Source of the DNA: a virus | Virus record (IMG/VR): IMGVR_UViG_3300005289_000067 | Location: 1 to 37,611 of that record | DNA: 37,611 nucleotides | Strand: one strand, 5' to 3' | Shown here: positions 3,723 to 35,448 of the stretch, in pieces | Numbering within the stretch: the stretch's first letter is position 1 | How the letters are laid out: each line of letters opens with the position of its first letter | The notes under the pieces: model-generated | The model's input: only the letters and a program-made list of their open reading frames with translations | What the model was told of the DNA's origin: nothing | Database searches by the model: none | Position numbers and translations under genes: made by a program

Positions 3723-3746
3723 AAATTTTCTTTGCTAAAAAACTGC

Positions 3747-4397
3747 ATGAGAATTTTATTTTCTTTAATTACATTTGTCTTATTCTCATTTGTTTCCTTT
3801 ATCCTTTTGAAGGATAAATACATTGAGCCAAACCACTTCGTTATTTTGATAATATTTTCTGCAATTGTATCCGCAATAATTGCATATTTTGATGAGGTTC
3901 AAGAGCTATCTATTGGAGGCAATATTGTTAAACTAAAAGAAGCAAAAAAGGAGTTACAGGTAACAATAGATCAATTAAAGTCAATTAAAGTGTCTACATA
4001 TCGGATGTTACTTTTGAAAAGTTTACAATCTTCTGGTGGTTTTGGAAGCAGCTATTTAGTGGATCGTAGAGCAGAATATTTTTTTTCACTTACTAATGAA
4101 ATTAAACAATCAGAGTGTTTTAATGATCTTAAGTCAGAAATAAAAGTTCAATTAACAAGGTTGTTAAATGATCAATTAAATAAATTCTATTCGATATTTT
4201 ATGACAAGCAATTCAATGATAACGATGAATTCCCTAAACCTACGGTTTTTTATATCGATTTGAAAAAAGAGATTATTGATAAAGTTCATAAAAATCAGAC
4301 ACCTGTTATACCTTTCGAACAAAAAAAAGAGGAAATTGTCTCAGCTATAGATAACTATGCAGCTTTGTATCTTTTATTAAAAGAAGTTGAACAGTAG
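3747..4397 (+). CDS. Membrane-anchored accessory protein, two N-terminal spans
   Basis: From ATG 3747 the protein has 216 residues. It has two hydrophobic segments at about residues 2-21 (RILFSLITFVLFSFVSFILL) and 31-49 (HFVILIIFSAIVSAIIAYF), then a helical, charged cytoplasmic domain of about 165 residues (KLKEAKKELQVTIDQLKSIK). The frame is open from TTG 3732, but neither start has a clear ribosome site. The gene is AT-rich, has a possible promoter of its own, and is followed by a strong terminator, the pattern of an independently expressed accessory gene. No family recognised. The architecture is shared with three other genes in this prophage, which suggests exclusion or defence, but this is inference. 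Confidence 0.65.
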   Translation: MRILFSLITFVLFSFVSFILLKDKYIEPNHFVILIIFSAIVSAIIAYFDEVQELSIGGNIVKLKEAKKELQVTIDQLKSIKVSTYRMLLLKSLQSSGGFGSSYLVDRRAEYFFSLTNEIKQSECFNDLKSEIKVQLTRLLNDQLNKFYSIFYDKQFNDNDEFPKPTVFYIDLKKEIIDKVHKNQTPVIPFEQKKEEIVSAIDNYAALYLLLKEVEQ

Positions 4398-9943: not shown

Positions 9944-11299
9944 ATGAGTGGATATATTGAGAAAATTAATGATGATTTACGAAACTGTATGGAGTCATTG
10001 CAAGTACAACCTATATTATTTGTAGGATCAGGCCTCTCACAAAGATATTGTGATTTACCTAATTGGCAAGGTTTAATGGAGGAACTAGCAGAGGAATGCC
10101 CTAATATAAAAAGAAGTTTTGCATACTATGAGCAAAATTATGATTCTGATTACAAAAAAATTGCATCTGATTTTTCTAGTATTTATTCGGAATGGGCTTG
10201 GGAGGTAAAAGATGTAAATGATACTTTCCCTGCTGAATTATTTGAAAAAGGTACACCTAAAGATATATATTTAAAACATATAATTGCTAAAAAATTTAAA
10301 GAAAAAACTGCGGGACTAGATTTTTCTTCAAGCCCTTATGCAGAAGAAATTGAATCATTTAAAAAAATAAAGCCACACGCTGTAATTACTACAAATTATG
10401 ATTTAGTGCTTGAGGCTTTATTTGATGAATATACTAGTATTGTTGGGCAACAAATTATACAAGCAAATTTTGTAAGTCCCGGTGAAATACTAAAAATTCA
10501 TGGTTGTTGCTTAAATGAAAAAAGTATTGTTATTACTCAAGAAGATTATGTTGACTTTGATCAAACAAAAAAATATTTAAGTGCAAAACTTCTTACATAT
10601 TTTGCTGAACACCCTTTATTCTTCATTGGTTATAGTTGTTCAGATCCAAATATTACTGCAATTTTGTCAGATATAGATCAAATCCTATGTCCTAACGGTG
10701 AATTAATTCCAAATATTTATTTAATTAGTTATGAAAATAATTTCAATGAATCAAACACATATCCTAGTGAAGTTTTGATACCAATTAATGGTCAAAAAAG
10801 TGTTCGAATTAAGGTAATTTATGCAAAGGACTATAAATGGATTTATGATTCAATCGCTGAGTCAGCACCTGATATATCAGTTAGTCCTAAAATCCTCAGA
10901 GCATTGTTGGCACGAACATACAAATTGATATCTAGGGAGTTACCTCGACAAGAGGTTGCGTTTGATATCCAACTTCTAAAAGATATTTCGGAAGATGATA
11001 AAGAGTTACCAAAATTATTTGGTATATCTGAAATGGATAATGGTCAGGTGATTAACGCTAACTTTATTTACACGTTCAATGAAATGGCAAAAGCTTTAGG
11101 TTATTCATATTGGCATAGTGCTCAACTTTTAGTGGACAAAATTAAAGAAGATACTGGACATGATATTAAAGCTACAGACAATAAATATCATATTAAAGTT
11201 ATGACAGGAGTTAAAAGCTCAACAAGAAAATATTCTAAACAATGTCTAGATCTTCTAATCTTAGTTAGAGACGGCAAGCCTTATAACGTGAATATATAA
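9944..11299 (+). CDS. SIR2-family NADase-like protein, candidate defence gene
   Basis: The 451-residue protein has an N-terminal SIR2-like domain (about residues 20-270) with the NAD-site signatures FVGSGLS (26-32), TTNYD (149-153; Asn151), KIHGC (184-188; His186) and FFIGYSCSDPNI (226-237). Such domains in ThsA, DSR and other SIR2 defence proteins cleave NAD+ on phage sensing. The C-terminal ~170 residues match nothing I recognise and may sense a trigger. The gene is much more AT-rich than its neighbours, has its own promoter and terminator, and splits the Mu F-like/DUF2213 head gene pair. I infer a transferred superinfection-defence gene carried in the lysogen. Catalytic residues appear intact; activity and trigger are unknown. 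Confidence 0.75.
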   Translation: MSGYIEKINDDLRNCMESLQVQPILFVGSGLSQRYCDLPNWQGLMEELAEECPNIKRSFAYYEQNYDSDYKKIASDFSSIYSEWAWEVKDVNDTFPAELFEKGTPKDIYLKHIIAKKFKEKTAGLDFSSSPYAEEIESFKKIKPHAVITTNYDLVLEALFDEYTSIVGQQIIQANFVSPGEILKIHGCCLNEKSIVITQEDYVDFDQTKKYLSAKLLTYFAEHPLFFIGYSCSDPNITAILSDIDQILCPNGELIPNIYLISYENNFNESNTYPSEVLIPINGQKSVRIKVIYAKDYKWIYDSIAESAPDISVSPKILRALLARTYKLISRELPRQEVAFDIQLLKDISEDDKELPKLFGISEMDNGQVINANFIYTFNEMAKALGYSYWHSAQLLVDKIKEDTGHDIKATDNKYHIKVMTGVKSSTRKYSKQCLDLLILVRDGKPYNVNI

Positions 11300-28450: not shown

Positions 28451-29029
28451 ATGAAATTTATCAATCTACAAAGAACACTTGGTGTTGCAGTTGACGGAAA
28501 GATAGGGCGCGGCACCTTTACAGCCTTATTTAAGAAACTTGGCGCAAATCAAAGTCGAGCTGAAGAGCTGGCATTAGCAGCTAACGTGCACTTCAAAGAT
28601 TATGCAATTCTCTACAATGAGTTGCGGTTTGCTCACTTCATTGCCCAGCTTACACATGAATCGGGTAATTTCCGATATATGGAAGAAATCGCAAGTGGTG
28701 CAGCTTATGAAGGCCGTAAAGACTTGGGCAATATTATGGCTGGCGATGGAGTGCGTTTTAAAGGGCGTGGTCCCCTCCAGTTGACTGGACGTGAAAACTA
28801 TCAAAAATATGGTCGAGCATTGGGCATTGATTTTGAATCACATCCCGAACTTGTCGCTATTCCTAGTATCGGTTTGCTTGTCTCTTGCAAGTTCTGGGTA
28901 AATAATGGCCTAAATGAGCTTGCTGATCGTGATGATTTACTAACTATTACGCGCCGTATTAATGGTGGCACTAATGGCTTGGATGATCGTAAATCCAATA
29001 TAACTAGAATTAAAAGTTGGATGTCTTGA
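28451..29029 (+). CDS. Endolysin, GH19 chitinase-like
   Basis: The 192-residue protein is a glycoside hydrolase family 19-type muralytic enzyme. Catalytic Glu70 lies in HFIAQLTHESGNF and a second acidic residue in YMEEI (78-80). The substrate-groove motif KGRGPLQLTGRENYQKYG is at 104-121 and RRINGGTNG near 168-176. The first ~35 residues (LGVAVDGKIGRGTFTALFKKLG) look like a short peptidoglycan-binding repeat. There is no signal peptide, so release depends on the holin. Its TGA overlaps a TTG-started lipoprotein-like ORF. Confidence 0.9.
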   Translation: MKFINLQRTLGVAVDGKIGRGTFTALFKKLGANQSRAEELALAANVHFKDYAILYNELRFAHFIAQLTHESGNFRYMEEIASGAAYEGRKDLGNIMAGDGVRFKGRGPLQLTGRENYQKYGRALGIDFESHPELVAIPSIGLLVSCKFWVNNGLNELADRDDLLTITRRINGGTNGLDDRKSNITRIKSWMS

Positions 29030-29091
29030 CAGCTTTAATATTGCTGAGCATCTTGTTATCAGGATGCTCAGCTCAAATTATTAAATACTAA
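29026..29091 (+). pseudogene. Lipoprotein-like ORF (o-spanin-like), probably truncated
   Basis: A TTG at 29026, overlapping the endolysin stop, opens a 21-residue frame, MTALILLSILLSGCSAQIIKY. It has a complete lipoprotein signal peptide with lipobox LSGC and almost nothing after it. Rz1-type outer membrane spanins start like this and lie after the endolysin. A related copy at 30010 continues further, and this copy shows related sequence in another frame after the stop, so it looks frameshifted. It also encodes a perfect hairpin (29044-29073). Confidence 0.45.
29044..29073 (+). repeat. Hairpin element, copy 1
   Basis: GCTGAGCATC and GATGCTCAGC form a perfect 10-bp stem with a 10-base loop within the lipobox codons. 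No T-run follows. A diverged copy at about 30019-30046 keeps the pairing with a compensating base change. Confidence 0.6.
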
Positions 29092-29166
29092 AATCAATGC
29101 CAGTGTTTAGAGTTGCTTACAATACTTATGATAAAGCCCATAATCATTATTGAAGCAATCTCTAAT

Positions 29167-29835
29167 TTAGTTATTGTTATAATTAAAAAAATGCAAAATA
29201 TCTAATCTTTCTAATTCCGTTAATTGATTTTTTATTGCTTCAGTATAAATACGGTTTTTAGAATCTTTAAATTTAGATTCATTCTTATTTAATATATCAA
29301 TCAAATATCTAATGTCATATCGAAGTACCAAGAGTGATCCTAAATAAGATCCTAAAGCGAAGAACAACTTTTTCTGTATATCTTCATCCCTTATGTTCAC
29401 ATGAAATAGATCATCAAATTTTTCATCTATATTATTTAGAAATTCTATACTATTATTTAAAATTTTTAAAGATTGCCTAACATTTAAGTTTATGTTTTCA
29501 AAATGGTTTTCTAGTAAAATGTCACATGAATACAACTTTAAACTACCTGGTTTCACAGCATTAAAGCCATCTATATCCTCTCCATCCATCAACGCAGCAA
29601 TCTTTTGAAAGACAGTGACTATCATTGAAAATGATTTATCAATGTGAATTATTTCATCATATAGTTCCTGTTCAAGTGCTTTTAAGAGTCTTTTTCTTTC
29701 AATTCGCTTCTTAACTTTTTCAATAAATGGTAGAGCTAGAATACCCAAAATAAGTGTTAAAAGTGGACCAATAAGTGGAATAAATATTTTTAAATCTAAA
29801 CAATATGAGAAGTAATTATAATAATAACAAGCCAT
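29167..29835 (-). CDS. Membrane-anchored helical accessory protein
   Basis: A 222-residue, leftward, AT-rich gene. One long hydrophobic segment at about residues 15-38 (LKIFIPLIGPLLTLILGILALPFI) is followed by a basic stretch (EKVKKRIERKRLLK) and about 170 residues of charged, helical sequence with no motif I recognise. ATG 29835 has AAAGG eight bases upstream, and a perfect TATAAT (29862-29867 on this strand) lies 26 bases upstream. It sits between two copies of the lipoprotein/hairpin element, opposite to the lysis genes, so it is expressed independently in the lysogen. A role in exclusion or defence is inferred from position only. Confidence 0.65.
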   Translation of the reverse strand: MACYYYNYFSYCLDLKIFIPLIGPLLTLILGILALPFIEKVKKRIERKRLLKALEQELYDEIIHIDKSFSMIVTVFQKIAALMDGEDIDGFNAVKPGSLKLYSCDILLENHFENINLNVRQSLKILNNSIEFLNNIDEKFDDLFHVNIRDEDIQKKLFFALGSYLGSLLVLRYDIRYLIDILNKNESKFKDSKNRIYTEAIKNQLTELERLDILHFFNYNNN

Positions 29836-29861
29836 GTAAATTACCTTTGTAAAAGTCTAGC

Positions 29862-29867
29862 ATTATA
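29862..29867 (-). promoter_or_regulatory. Probable -10 box for the leftward membrane gene
   Basis: Read leftward, TATAAT preceded by TG gives a good extended-type -10 (ATGTATAAT). No clear -35 is present. It lies between the umuC remnant and the start codon at 29835. Confidence 0.45.
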
Positions 29868-29875
29868 CATTTAAA

Positions 29876-29971
29876 CTAAGATGTTATTACCAATAATTCA
29901 TCCCACCTAAACAGACTTCTACTAAGTTTATCTCTCGACATCGACCAGTTCAGACCAGGGACAATTCTTTT
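29876..29971 (-). pseudogene. Remnant of the 3' end of a second umuC gene
   Basis: Read leftward, about 31 codons end in TAG at 29876: [20 protein letters not shown], then FRWDELLVITS. This aligns closely with the end of the intact umuC product ([20 protein letters not shown], then DELIVINN). [11 protein letters not shown] is identical. No upstream part of umuC is present, so it is a fragment, diverged from the intact copy. It marks an old recombination junction. Confidence 0.8.
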
Positions 29972-30009
29972 ACGACTGGATAGCTAATCGGGTTTCACTT
30001 TAATGGTTC

Positions 30010-30099
30010 ATGTTTTTGCTGTGCATTCTATTATCAGGATGCACAACTCATACGATCAATAGCAATGTGAGTGTAGGTATTTGTGTGAAAGCCCTTTAG
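30010..30099 (+). CDS. Short lipoprotein, o-spanin-like
   Basis: ATG 30010 opens a 29-residue frame, MFLLCILLSGCTTHTINSNV, then SVGICVKAL. It has a short signal peptide with lipobox LSGC, and the predicted mature lipoprotein is about 19 residues. It is related to the ORF at 29026 in DNA sequence (TTATCAGGATGC is identical). Rz1-like spanin is a reasonable guess, but no inner-membrane partner is visible and no good ribosome site precedes it. It may also be a relic displaced from the endolysin by the inserted genes. Confidence 0.4.
   Translation: MFLLCILLSGCTTHTINSNVSVGICVKAL
30019..30046 (+). repeat. Hairpin element, copy 2
   Basis: CTGTGCAT and ATGCACAAC form a stem around TTATCAGG-containing sequence, as in copy 1 at 29044. 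The pair that is A-T in copy 1 is T-A here. Confidence 0.5.
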
Positions 30100-30121
30100 A
30101 TAGGGCTAACCATATTTGATA

Positions 30122-31297
30122 TTATTTTGAAACTAAATTCTTAATTTCAGAGATTGATTTTACAACTTGATCTAAATTTGTAGTTAATTGATTAAACCCT
30201 TTTTCTTCATTTACTGGTTCTTGATTATCTATATGTCCCTTAAAATAGGATTTAGCTAAATCAATTCTTAAAGTTTGGACTTGTTCCTTCGTTAACTCAG
30301 CTACATAGTCGGGTAAGGCCGTAAGCTCTAAGTAATTTTTCATACAGTAGGTATGTAAAGCTACGAGTCTTGATCTTTCTTTGATAAGAAAAGCTAAGAA
30401 TGCTGATAAAGAAAAAATGAAAGTGGCAAAGAATACATACTTATGCCAGTCATATGAATCATGGTATAGAATTATATTTAATAGAATGGATGAAGGGATA
30501 AGAATAAAAAGAAATACAATTACATAGGTGTAATTTGCAATATTTGAATTATATTGATTAGCCTCGATTCTATATGCATAAATTAAATCTTTATTTTCCT
30601 GTAAACCTAACTTTTTTCTAACATCCTTGTATTCTTCGGTATGTTCTTGTACTTGTTTAGCAAATTCAACTTTATTTAATTCAAGATCAATATCTTTAAG
30701 AGATAAATATAAATCTTTAATCGCTTCTGCCTGAGGTGTTCCTGTTGGGTTGTATAAATTGTGAGCAGCCATAAAGGTGTCAACAATTAGATCTTTTGTA
30801 GAGTCTTCAGTTAAAGGGTGGGAGAAAACCTTAAGAGCAATTTCATTTAATTTTGGCGGATAGTCGACATTATTAATTGAAAATTCATTTTCAATAATTT
30901 CTAATAGATTTAATAAGTTCTCTTCCGTAACATTCTCATAATAAAATTTTTGAAAACTATTAAAATTACACTCCTTAATTTTATTTAAATTTTCATGAAT
31001 TTTGGGGATATATTCTTCACTTTTATATTCGATTAAAAGTTCATCTATTGGCAAAATATTGATTAGATTGTCTATTGTTTTTATTAATTCTTTAAGTACT
31101 GTATGGGGTAAAAAGAATGCAGCTTTGATTGTGAAATTAACTTCATAAGATAAGTTATCTATCAAAGTTAAAAATTGAGTTTTTACTTCACTTTCATTAT
31201 CGATCAATACAAGCTCATCTAGCTGTTTATCAATTTTTAATAATAATGATTCTAGTTTTACATTTAGATTTTTCAAATCATCTGTTCGTGTTGACAA
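30122..31297 (-). CDS. Membrane-associated helical accessory protein
   Basis: A 391-residue, AT-rich leftward gene. Residues 1-255 are helical and charged, with coiled-coil character at the N-terminus (LKNLNVKLESLLLKIDKQLDEL). Two membrane spans lie at about 258-279 (YTYVIVFLFILIPSSILLNIIL) and 290-308 (VFFATFIFSLSAFLAFLIK), and about 80 more helical residues follow. The only usable start is TTG 31297, with GGGAAAG upstream. It sits between the lipoprotein copy and intact umuC. No family recognised. The layout (cytosolic helical domain anchored by a hairpin of two spans) would suit a sensor or exclusion protein, but no function can be assigned. Confidence 0.65.
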   Translation of the reverse strand: MSTRTDDLKNLNVKLESLLLKIDKQLDELVLIDNESEVKTQFLTLIDNLSYEVNFTIKAAFFLPHTVLKELIKTIDNLINILPIDELLIEYKSEEYIPKIHENLNKIKECNFNSFQKFYYENVTEENLLNLLEIIENEFSINNVDYPPKLNEIALKVFSHPLTEDSTKDLIVDTFMAAHNLYNPTGTPQAEAIKDLYLSLKDIDLELNKVEFAKQVQEHTEEYKDVRKKLGLQENKDLIYAYRIEANQYNSNIANYTYVIVFLFILIPSSILLNIILYHDSYDWHKYVFFATFIFSLSAFLAFLIKERSRLVALHTYCMKNYLELTALPDYVAELTKEQVQTLRIDLAKSYFKGHIDNQEPVNEEKGFNQLTTNLDQVVKSISEIKNLVSK

Positions 31298-31343
31298 TTT
31301 AATTCTTTCCCAAATAACAAAGATTATTAAGAATATAATAATA

Positions 31344-32642
31344 TTAATTATTTATCACTATTAACTCATCAAATTTGAATGGATTCCTACTCAACTTATC
31401 CCGCGACATAGACCAATTTCTATTTGGTACAAAGCACGGACCTACACTAATTTTTTTCTTCCCAAACTTGCTATGAATACCATCCATAGCCTGCATCAAA
31501 CATTCCTTTTTCTCTATATGCTTGAAGTCGGTTAATAGGTCATAAGTGTGGCCAGACCTTGGCTCTAAGCCAGTTAGTATTACGCCACATTTTTTGTACT
31601 TAATACCTTCTTTATAAATTTCATAAATCATGCGTACTGCAGCTTTTACAAAATCAGTAGCGCAATCCGTGGGTTCTGAGAACGAACCTGTGATTGATTT
31701 ATTGTAGAAAGGCACATTTGAGTCAAAAGGGTTTGACTGTACGAAAGCAATCATACATCCACATAACAAGCCTTCATCCCTTAAGCGTTTACATGCATCC
31801 TGAGCATACATTGAGATTGCTTCTTTTAGATCCGTTAATTCAGTTACGCGACCGCCAAAAGACCGGCTTGCAACAATCTGTTTTTTTGATGGGGGAGTAT
31901 GCTCGATCTCTATGCATGAAATTCCCTGCAATTCATAGATAGTTCTGGCCATCACAATTGAAAACTTTTTCTGCATCTCTCTCGGCTCAGCACAGGCTAA
32001 ATCAAGCACCGTATTAATTCCCATGCATTGCAACTTTTTTGAGTGCTTGCGGCCCACACCCCAAACCTCACTTACATCGATTTGAGCGAAATAATATTCT
32101 TTGTTGCAAGGATCCATATTTACGAGATCGCACACACTGTTAAAGCCGGGGTTCTTCTTAGCGATATAATTGGATATCTTTGCCTCGGTCTTGCTGCGAC
32201 CAATTCCCACGCACACGGGCAAACCAATCCATTTCCATATTTGCTGGCGCATTTGCTGACCGACTTTCTCTAAATCAAAGTTCTTCTCATAAGCGGTAAA
32301 ATCAACGAAACACTCATCTATTGAGTAAGGTTCAACTTCTTCATCAGTTACGTAAGAACTCAGAATCTTATGAAAACGTCTCGACATTTCAGCATACATT
32401 GCATAATTGCTTGAAAGTACGATTACGTTGTGTTGCTGAACAATGTCTTTAATTTGGAATAACGGCACCCCCATCTTTATGTTTAAAGATTTCGACTCAT
32501 TGCTACGCGCCACGGCGCACCCATCATTATTGCTGAGAACAATCACAGGCTTATTGTTTAAACTTGGGTCAAAGACTCTCTCACATGAGACGTACATGTT
32601 ATTTACATCGATGAGAAAGAAAACTTTGTTCTCATGCTTCAT
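31344..32642 (-). CDS. umuC: UmuC, DNA polymerase V catalytic subunit
   Basis: The 432-residue Y-family polymerase has the catalytic acidic residues Asp12 ([19 protein letters not shown]) and Asp109/Glu110 ([10 protein letters not shown]), the [11 protein letters not shown] palm/fingers motif (37-47), a helix-hairpin-helix ([13 protein letters not shown]) and the little-finger start [10 protein letters not shown]. With processed UmuD it carries out error-prone bypass of DNA lesions in the SOS response. It overlaps umuD by 4 bases (ATGA), a normal umuDC operon. Length matches the family (about 420-430). Acinetobacter strains often carry several umuDC copies on mobile DNA, and this is one. Confidence 0.95.
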
Positions 32643-33136
32643 GACTTTTTTCTTGTCATTTTAATGATATGAGTGACAACGCCCCAAATTATTAATTCCT
32701 GTCCTTCCGAAAGATAAATATTTTTATAATCTGGATTTTCGGCTTTTAGCCATTGGCCTTTTTCATCGATCATTAGGCGCTTAACTGTAAAATCATTATC
32801 GATTAGTGCCACGACAATATCGCCGTGTTTCGCATCTAAGCTACGATCGACAATGAGCTCATCATCAATGTCGATGCCAGCGTTGAGCATTGAGAGTGAT
32901 GCGACTTTGACAATAAAGGTTGCAGTTTCATTTTTTATTAAGTGCTCGTTCATATCGAGAGCTTTATCGATGTAATCTTGTGCTGGACTGGGGAAACCTG
33001 CTGAAATCTTCTCAAGTGCGTAAGGGATAAGCATATGAGAGGAGGGTATAACTAACTTAATAGACATAACATCAGATAAAACAGCACCTTGTAGATACGG
33101 CTTTATCTGGATGATGGATGGTGCAATTTCGCTCAT
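32639..33136 (-). CDS. umuD: UmuD-like S24 peptidase
   Basis: A 165-residue S24 protein with UmuD features: the cleavage region [11 protein letters not shown] (Ala46-Gly47; E. coli has Cys-Gly), catalytic Ser82 in [10 protein letters not shown] and Lys119 in DFTVKRL, and [10 protein letters not shown]. RecA filaments trigger self-cleavage to UmuD', which joins UmuC. I start at ATG 33136, where AGGGGA lies six bases upstream; TTG 33172 in frame falls within the operator. The N-terminal 45 residues before cleavage are longer than in E. coli UmuD (24), which may allow extra roles, as in the longer Acinetobacter UmuDAb repressor, but no clear HTH is visible. Confidence 0.9.
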
Positions 33137-33151
33137 AGAATATCCCCTAAC

Positions 33152-33172
33152 TTGAATTTGTAACATATTCAA
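33152..33172 (-). promoter_or_regulatory. Palindromic operator at umuD (SOS-type)
   Basis: The 21-base site has arms TTGAAT and ATTCAA separated by 9 bases (ATGTTACAA). It is palindromic at all but one symmetric pair and the centre. It lies between the -10 box and the start codon. TTGAA...TTCAA operators are known for UmuDAb-controlled damage genes in Acinetobacter, so this is probably the SOS operator of umuDC. Confidence 0.65.
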
Positions 33173-34602: not shown

Positions 34603-35448
34603 TTAAGCTCTATTTTTACTTTTAATCTTATTATTTATTTCAGTGTAGTAGCTATTCATTAATACGTAATATTCATCGTAGCTTTTGCGTTTTCTTTTTA
34701 TGATCCCTGTTTCTGGATCAGGCTCAATAGCAAAAGCACAATTTATAAAATTTGATGAAAATATCGAATAGAATTTATCAATATCTGTTTTAAATTTTGG
34801 CGTAAATATAATTGAAACCTTTAAATCAGTACTGCTAGATTCATTCATAGTACTTCTCAAAAGTTTATAAATCGAAAAATAGTGATCATTAATTATTTCA
34901 TTGTTTATATACAGAAAATTATTTGCAATTTCATAGAACAGATTAATAAGATATCTAAGTTCCTCATCTTCATTATAGTTTAAAAATCTATTTATATTAA
35001 TATAAAAATCAGTAAGATATGTATTTTTTAAATCATTACTACTGTTATATAAAGAGCTGGCTAAATAGTAATCCTCGTTATTGTCTTTGTATAAAGTATA
35101 AATTTTTATTATTGTTTTACAACTTGGATCAATTTCACCTTTAAATCTAATAAGATTTTCCTCAGAAGCATTTAGAAGTTCAAAATTAGCTTCAAAATTT
35201 TTTTGATGTCTCCATGAGTTAAGCAACAAGATAGCTATAATAGGAGCAAAAAGAGTTGCTGACCAGACAAACATATTTGAAAGAACAGCAGGAATATCAC
35301 TAGGAGATGTACCAAATTTTTTTGTAAGTGACAAACCAATGACTAATGCTAAAATAATTAAAATAAAATAACAAACAGTACTAATTACAATAGTACCGAC
35401 TATTCCATTAGTGGTTTTTCTGTTTTTGAATAATTTAAGTACCTTCAT
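34603..35448 (-). CDS. Two-span membrane accessory protein
   Basis: A 281-residue, AT-rich protein with two membrane spans at about 16-41 (IVGTIVISTVCYFILIILALVIGLSL) and 57-76 (SNMFVWSATLFAPIIAILLL). They are followed by a 200-residue helical, Asn/Tyr-rich cytoplasmic domain (NFEANFELLNASEENLIRFKG). It is the first gene of a leftward pair with SRAP. No family is recognised. The spans followed by a helical domain match the plan of the gene at 3747 and, with one span, that at 29167. Such proteins in prophages can block superinfection, but nothing in the sequence proves this. Confidence 0.65.
   Translation of the reverse strand: MKVLKLFKNRKTTNGIVGTIVISTVCYFILIILALVIGLSLTKKFGTSPSDIPAVLSNMFVWSATLFAPIIAILLLNSWRHQKNFEANFELLNASEENLIRFKGEIDPSCKTIIKIYTLYKDNNEDYYLASSLYNSSNDLKNTYLTDFYININRFLNYNEDEELRYLINLFYEIANNFLYINNEIINDHYFSIYKLLRSTMNESSSTDLKVSIIFTPKFKTDIDKFYSIFSSNFINCAFAIEPDPETGIIKRKRKSYDEYYVLMNSYYTEINNKIKSKNRA

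Follow-up and report, generated by a model that had tools for sequence, protein, structure and literature searches.

The window, which is the whole 37,611-nucleotide stretch of viral DNA analyzed here, raises the question of how a short accessory region can come to be present twice, with different genes in each copy. Between the lysis genes and the umuDC operon, a small lipoprotein ORF, a predicted leftward membrane gene and a umuC 3' end are followed by a second lipoprotein ORF, a different leftward membrane gene and the intact umuC. The interval between the endolysin and umuDC is very probably a tandemly doubled accessory-gene slot, in which two slots of different origin are joined end to end.

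Architecture of the doubled slot

The left border of the slot is an intact endolysin of the GH19/chitinase type (28451–29029, + strand; Pfam PF00182, 8e-8; phrog_181 endolysin, 2e-48). The right border is an intact umuC (31344–32642, − strand; Pfam IMS, 6e-39; phrog_1268, 2.7e-185), adjoined by the gene of a umuD-like S24 peptidase (32639–33172, − strand; Pfam PF00717, 2e-27; phrog_811, 1.5e-55). Along the + strand, the order is endolysin, lipoprotein 1, cargo 1, umuC 3' remnant, endolysin 3' end, lipoprotein 2, cargo 2, umuC, and umuD; all ORFs and repeats listed in the original prediction were found again when the sequence was re-examined. In these Acinetobacter prophages, the slot separates two convergent operons: the late (lysis) operon, which closes with the endolysin, the small lipoprotein and a terminator, and umuDC, whose 3' end faces the slot. 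In some A. baumannii prophages (L003, L004, L006, and L010), the right border consists solely of a umuC 3' piece of 50–96 aa, as if the umuC border outlives the gene.

The two lipoprotein ORFs differ in their completeness. Copy 1 (29026–29091, + strand; nhmmer 2e-18 to the post-endolysin profile) begins with TTG, reads MTALILLSILLSGCSAQIIKY, contains the lipobox LLSGC, and overlaps the endolysin stop, as in the GH19-type relatives, but is shorter than in relatives and lacks the conserved tail. Copy 2 (30010–30099, + strand; MFLLCILLSGCTTHTINSNVSVGICVKAL; nhmmer 2e-28) is full length and carries a hairpin-forming sequence at its stop. In most relatives, the same small ORF is situated 3' of the endolysin. 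A signal peptide with a lipobox adjoining the endolysin is a feature of Rz1-like o-spanins, and LLSGC follows the endolysin in most slots. Such spanins also have an i-spanin partner and a long periplasmic part; here, no partner ORF was found between the endolysin and the lipoprotein, and the mature part comprises only ~19 residues. Credible second or third lipoprotein copies are present in L015/L016, L042, L047, and L129. Apparent second matches in L017, L071, and L086 were rejected because the extra match has no lipobox and spans the endolysin tail only.

The hybrid junction and its origin

A hybrid scar is located between the two cargo genes. Its left part is a umuC 3' remnant of 28 codons plus the stop (29876–29962, − strand; tblastn 2.5e-12), situated 40 nt upstream of cargo 1; this remnant had been predicted at 29876–29971, and it is real but slightly shorter. 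The right part, which the earlier reading had missed, is the 3' end of a GH108-type endolysin (29956–30003, + strand), which reads QGQFFYDWIANRVSL and a stop and is recovered by tblastn (7e-5) and by nucleotide alignment to L016. Immediately upstream of lipoprotein 2, the window reads QFFYDWIANRVSL followed by the stop. In the annotated Acinetobacter phages compared, the lipoprotein is preceded by a GH108-type endolysin with the corresponding C-terminus, e.g., EQFFYGWIANRVSM followed by the stop. With this C-terminus in front of lipoprotein 2, the junction connects a umuC 3' end to an endolysin 3' end plus lipoprotein, and the second unit therefore possesses its own left border. The predicted doubling of the slot is thereby confirmed, while the start of the second unit moves from the lipoprotein into the endolysin 3' end. 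Among 1000 dinucleotide shuffles of the slot, none reached either match: the umuC remnant scores 52 bits against a shuffle maximum of 24.3 (0/1000), and the endolysin scar 30.8 bits against 25.8 (0/1000). The junction island has a phage-core-like GC content of 38.7% (whole window, 38.5%), compared with 25.7% and 27.2% in the two cargo genes that it separates.

In a comparison with 112 umuC 3' ends or loci, L079 provides the closest umuC to the remnant, with 68/79 identical nucleotides (86%), against 47/67 (70%) for the umuC of its own phage. The remnant is thus derived from another umuC lineage, as had been proposed from its divergence. Single slots hold relatives of both cargo genes. Homologues of cargo 1 are placed 39–41 nt behind an intact umuC in L133 (A. 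gyllenbergii) and in the viral contig L151, which matches the 40 nt between the remnant and cargo 1, and a homologue of cargo 2 (48% identity) is found in L012 within a plain GH108 endolysin–lipoprotein–cargo–umuC slot. The two outcomes named beforehand as refuting the recombination did not occur: a single slot is the rule among the relatives, and the umuC match of the remnant lies far above chance. Together, the foreign umuC remnant and the single-slot relatives of each cargo support the proposed recombination between slots of different origin; the exact parental pair is present on no contig found.

The same evidence bears on a duplication within one phage lineage, in which sister copies would undergo unequal crossover at a short repeat, and one cargo and the endolysin would later be replaced. 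A shared word does lie in direct orientation on both borders, and such a crossover would yield exactly the observed junction. However, the endolysin in the scar is of the GH108 type whereas the intact endolysin of the same phage is of the GH19 type (among 70 related slots, 60/70 carry GH108 and 10/70 carry GH19), and the remnant is nearer to a foreign umuC than to its own. A one-lineage duplication consequently needs two further replacements, and we consider it unlikely.

The endolysin 3' end and the umuC remnant overlap at CCAGGGACAA (29955–29964), a word common to umuC (antisense) and GH108 endolysin 3' ends, so the junction lies inside a shared 10-bp word, CCAGGRACAA. The antisense umuC of the likely donor type reads GACCAGGGACAAAAC (L079 and L093) or GACCAGGAACAAAAC (L080 and L044), the GH108 endolysin can read AGCCAGGAACAATTT (L079), and the window reads GACCAGGGACAATTC. 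The commonest 10-mer common to both slot borders is CCAGGAACAA. Shared words of at least 10 bp occur on the same strand in 3.3% of the pairs, compared with 1.5% in the inverted control and 0.4% with codon-shuffled umuC. These words suggest short-homology joining at the junction; within one genome, the shared words are usually only 6–8 bp, and the microhomology is therefore suggestive rather than proof.

For the preferred joining of two slots, the umuC 3' right border of one slot would have been connected to the endolysin 3' left border of another, at or near CCAGGRACAA, by phage- or RecA-mediated recombination between co-resident phages, with both cargoes kept. The scar would then have remained in place and provided additional homology for the exchange of cargo around it. 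The same junction exists in A. calcoaceticus DSM 30006 (L129/L095), with 78% identity over ~140 nt and with other cargo. Both scars encode YDWI, whereas intact endolysins have YGWI or FGWI, and the D occurs in 0/88 intact endolysins of the fetched loci. A rigid pattern search for the junction returned the A. calcoaceticus case only. Since this junction is common to a prophage with other cargo, the scar is old and need not date from the meeting of cargo 1 and cargo 2. The simplest reading is a single old origin of the scar followed by cargo exchange around it, and the present pairing may result from a later exchange around the inherited scar. Of the original proposal that two phages recombined and kept both cargoes, the slot recombination stands, but the junction is old and the present cargoes are maybe not the original pair.

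Another possible origin is an assembly chimera of two prophages joined at a short repeat. Misjoins at repeats can arise in viral contigs assembled from draft data, and several such prophage loci do coexist in one genome, e.g., G002 and G020. Such a chimera is nevertheless hardly credible, given the same junction, 22% diverged, in the A. calcoaceticus DSM 30006 genome and the independent scars in other slots. L030/L065, L064, and L090 likewise contain a umuC 3' remnant in the interior of their slots, and the one in L064 precedes a truncated copy of the lipoprotein ORF. These scars, at least three in number besides the one in the window, show that the joining process recurs. A further origin, insertion of a mobile element (integrase or IS) that targets the umuC 3' end and rebuilds the border, would fit the transposases and the integrase present in some slots. 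It is very unlikely here, as neither a transposase nor an integrase gene was found in the slot of the window, nor any terminal inverted repeat of an element, and the scars end inside the endolysin and umuC coding sequences and differ between loci. Separately, L030 and L065 have a common umuC 3' scar with related cargo genes on either side, and this scar therefore looks inherited.

The slot as a hotspot and its cargo

In 70 distinct endolysin–umuC slots, a set that includes host prophages, the site is flanked by the endolysin and umuC, i.e., by conserved core genes on both sides, as is characteristic of hotspots. These slots are 565–4272 nt long and contain 156 ORFs in 79 cargo clusters (46 singletons), and their GC content is below that of their own umuC in 70/70 cases. 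PADLOC matches in the slots include a fused PARIS AriAB in L077 (3e-121), Septu PtuA (3e-128) and PtuB (7e-72) in L033, an AbiL-like ATPase in L017 (AbiLi, 2e-22), PDC-S45 in L079 (6e-100), and PD-T4-5 in L042 (1e-30); a PD-T7-4 match is also among the cargo set. With 79 cargo clusters including Septu, PARIS, AbiL-like, PD-T4-5, and PDC-S45, the slot is a defense/accessory hotspot, in agreement with the predicted cargo hotspot between the lysis genes and umuDC. The insertion sequences IS30, IS5, and IS4 occur in some slots, so the cargo is not all defense.

Cargo 1 (29167–29835, − strand) encodes 222 aa with a hydrophobic N-terminal helix and an otherwise helical chain. It belongs to an orphan family with homologues of 39–56% identity in the same slot of L050, L054/L070, L133/L151, and L152. 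When viral contigs were scanned, cargo 1 by itself recovered no relatives, and the cargo 1 alignment recovered five loci. Cargo 2 (30122–31297, − strand), located 46 nt behind umuC, encodes a mainly helical, two-TM protein of 391 aa, likewise an orphan, with homologues in the same slot of L012 (48%), L116/L134, L051, L141, and L037. Neither cargo has a Pfam or PADLOC match, neither matched the phage records, and cargo 1 matched no plasmid. The AlphaFold models are mainly helical and of moderate quality (pLDDT 78 and 73, respectively): a long N-terminal helix contains the hydrophobic stretch of cargo 1, and cargo 2 shows two hydrophobic helices. We read both as membrane proteins on the basis of their sequences. 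Foldseek with the two models gave no significant match, and profile searches against the PDB yielded no more than weak matches to helical proteins. The two-TM effector family SLATT_5 matches 2/14 relatives of cargo 2 (E 0.0013) and has no significant match to cargo 2 itself; the possible SLATT_5 link is a lead only.

Both cargo genes share the slot with proven and candidate defense systems, which favors a role in defense or superinfection exclusion. By location only, they are, with moderate confidence, candidate phage-defense or superinfection-exclusion genes; as neither family has a PADLOC match, the defense role is guilt by association. Their expression would probably take place in the lysogen, possibly by read-through from umuDC. 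In 65/70 slots, umuC is adjoined by an ORF on the umuDC strand, and in 42 of them this ORF begins within 100 nt of the umuC stop. In the window, no minus-strand terminator-like site was found between umuC and cargo 2, and promoter-like sites are only slightly above shuffles. With cargo near the umuC stop, on the same strand and without such a site, read-through from the DNA-damage-induced umuDC is possible. More speculatively, the borders may form a self-multiplying capture site, in which each joining leaves an endolysin/lipoprotein/umuC scar as fresh homology, so that the slot grows and reshuffles in the manner of a cassette array, but with no integrase dedicated to it. Cargo 1 and cargo 2 would then represent two new anti-phage families that act at the membrane and are expressed together with umuDC upon DNA damage; we hold this combined view to be doubtful.

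Relation to known accessory sites

Morons are extra genes in temperate phages, and the slot cargo resembles them as AT-rich extra genes between core genes. Morons have a promoter and a terminator of their own; the slot cargo by umuC, in contrast, often starts within 100 nt of its stop and may be read through from umuDC. Anti-phage hotspots are known in P2-like phages and P4-like satellites (Rousset et al. 2022, PMC9122126), where conserved phage genes likewise surround a small variable site with many different anti-phage systems. In contrast, the present site belongs to Acinetobacter prophages with umuDC and lies between the lysis genes and umuDC, its cargo is mostly situated behind umuC on the umuC strand, and its borders can be present in duplicate in the form of hybrid scars. 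For A. baumannii ATCC 17978, one report gives the order of prophage CP9 as holin, lysozyme, one hypothetical gene, and umuC, and describes the prophage polymerase genes as DNA-damage induced (PMC3978071). The passages accessible from it present CP5 and CP9 as a gene list and do not describe a variable slot, diverse cargo or scars. No description of the endolysin–umuC slot was found in the searchable literature; a survey of Acinetobacter defense hotspots (Yi et al. 2025, cited in PMC12421847) could already include it.

The interval from the endolysin stop to the umuC stop provides a simple address for collecting uncharacterized anti-phage genes of Acinetobacter prophages. For most of the cargo clusters no function is known, although they occupy the position in which sister phages carry Septu, PARIS, and other defense genes. 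The scars also document how accessory genes accumulate in temperate phages, and the location behind the DNA-damage-induced umuDC raises the question of when the cargo genes switch on.

Further genes of note are found elsewhere in the window. A SIR2-domain gene (9944–11299, + strand; PADLOC candidate PDC-S25, 7.6e-83) with a GC content of 30.2% lies within the head-gene cluster, and its location is another accessory site in the phage. An AT-rich leftward membrane gene (34603–35448, − strand) is situated between the SRAP gene and the integrase and matches phrog_17209; two cargo genes of the lysis–umuC slot match this family as well. In the early region, a membrane protein gene (3732–4397, + strand) matches phrog_8083 (1.7e-98).
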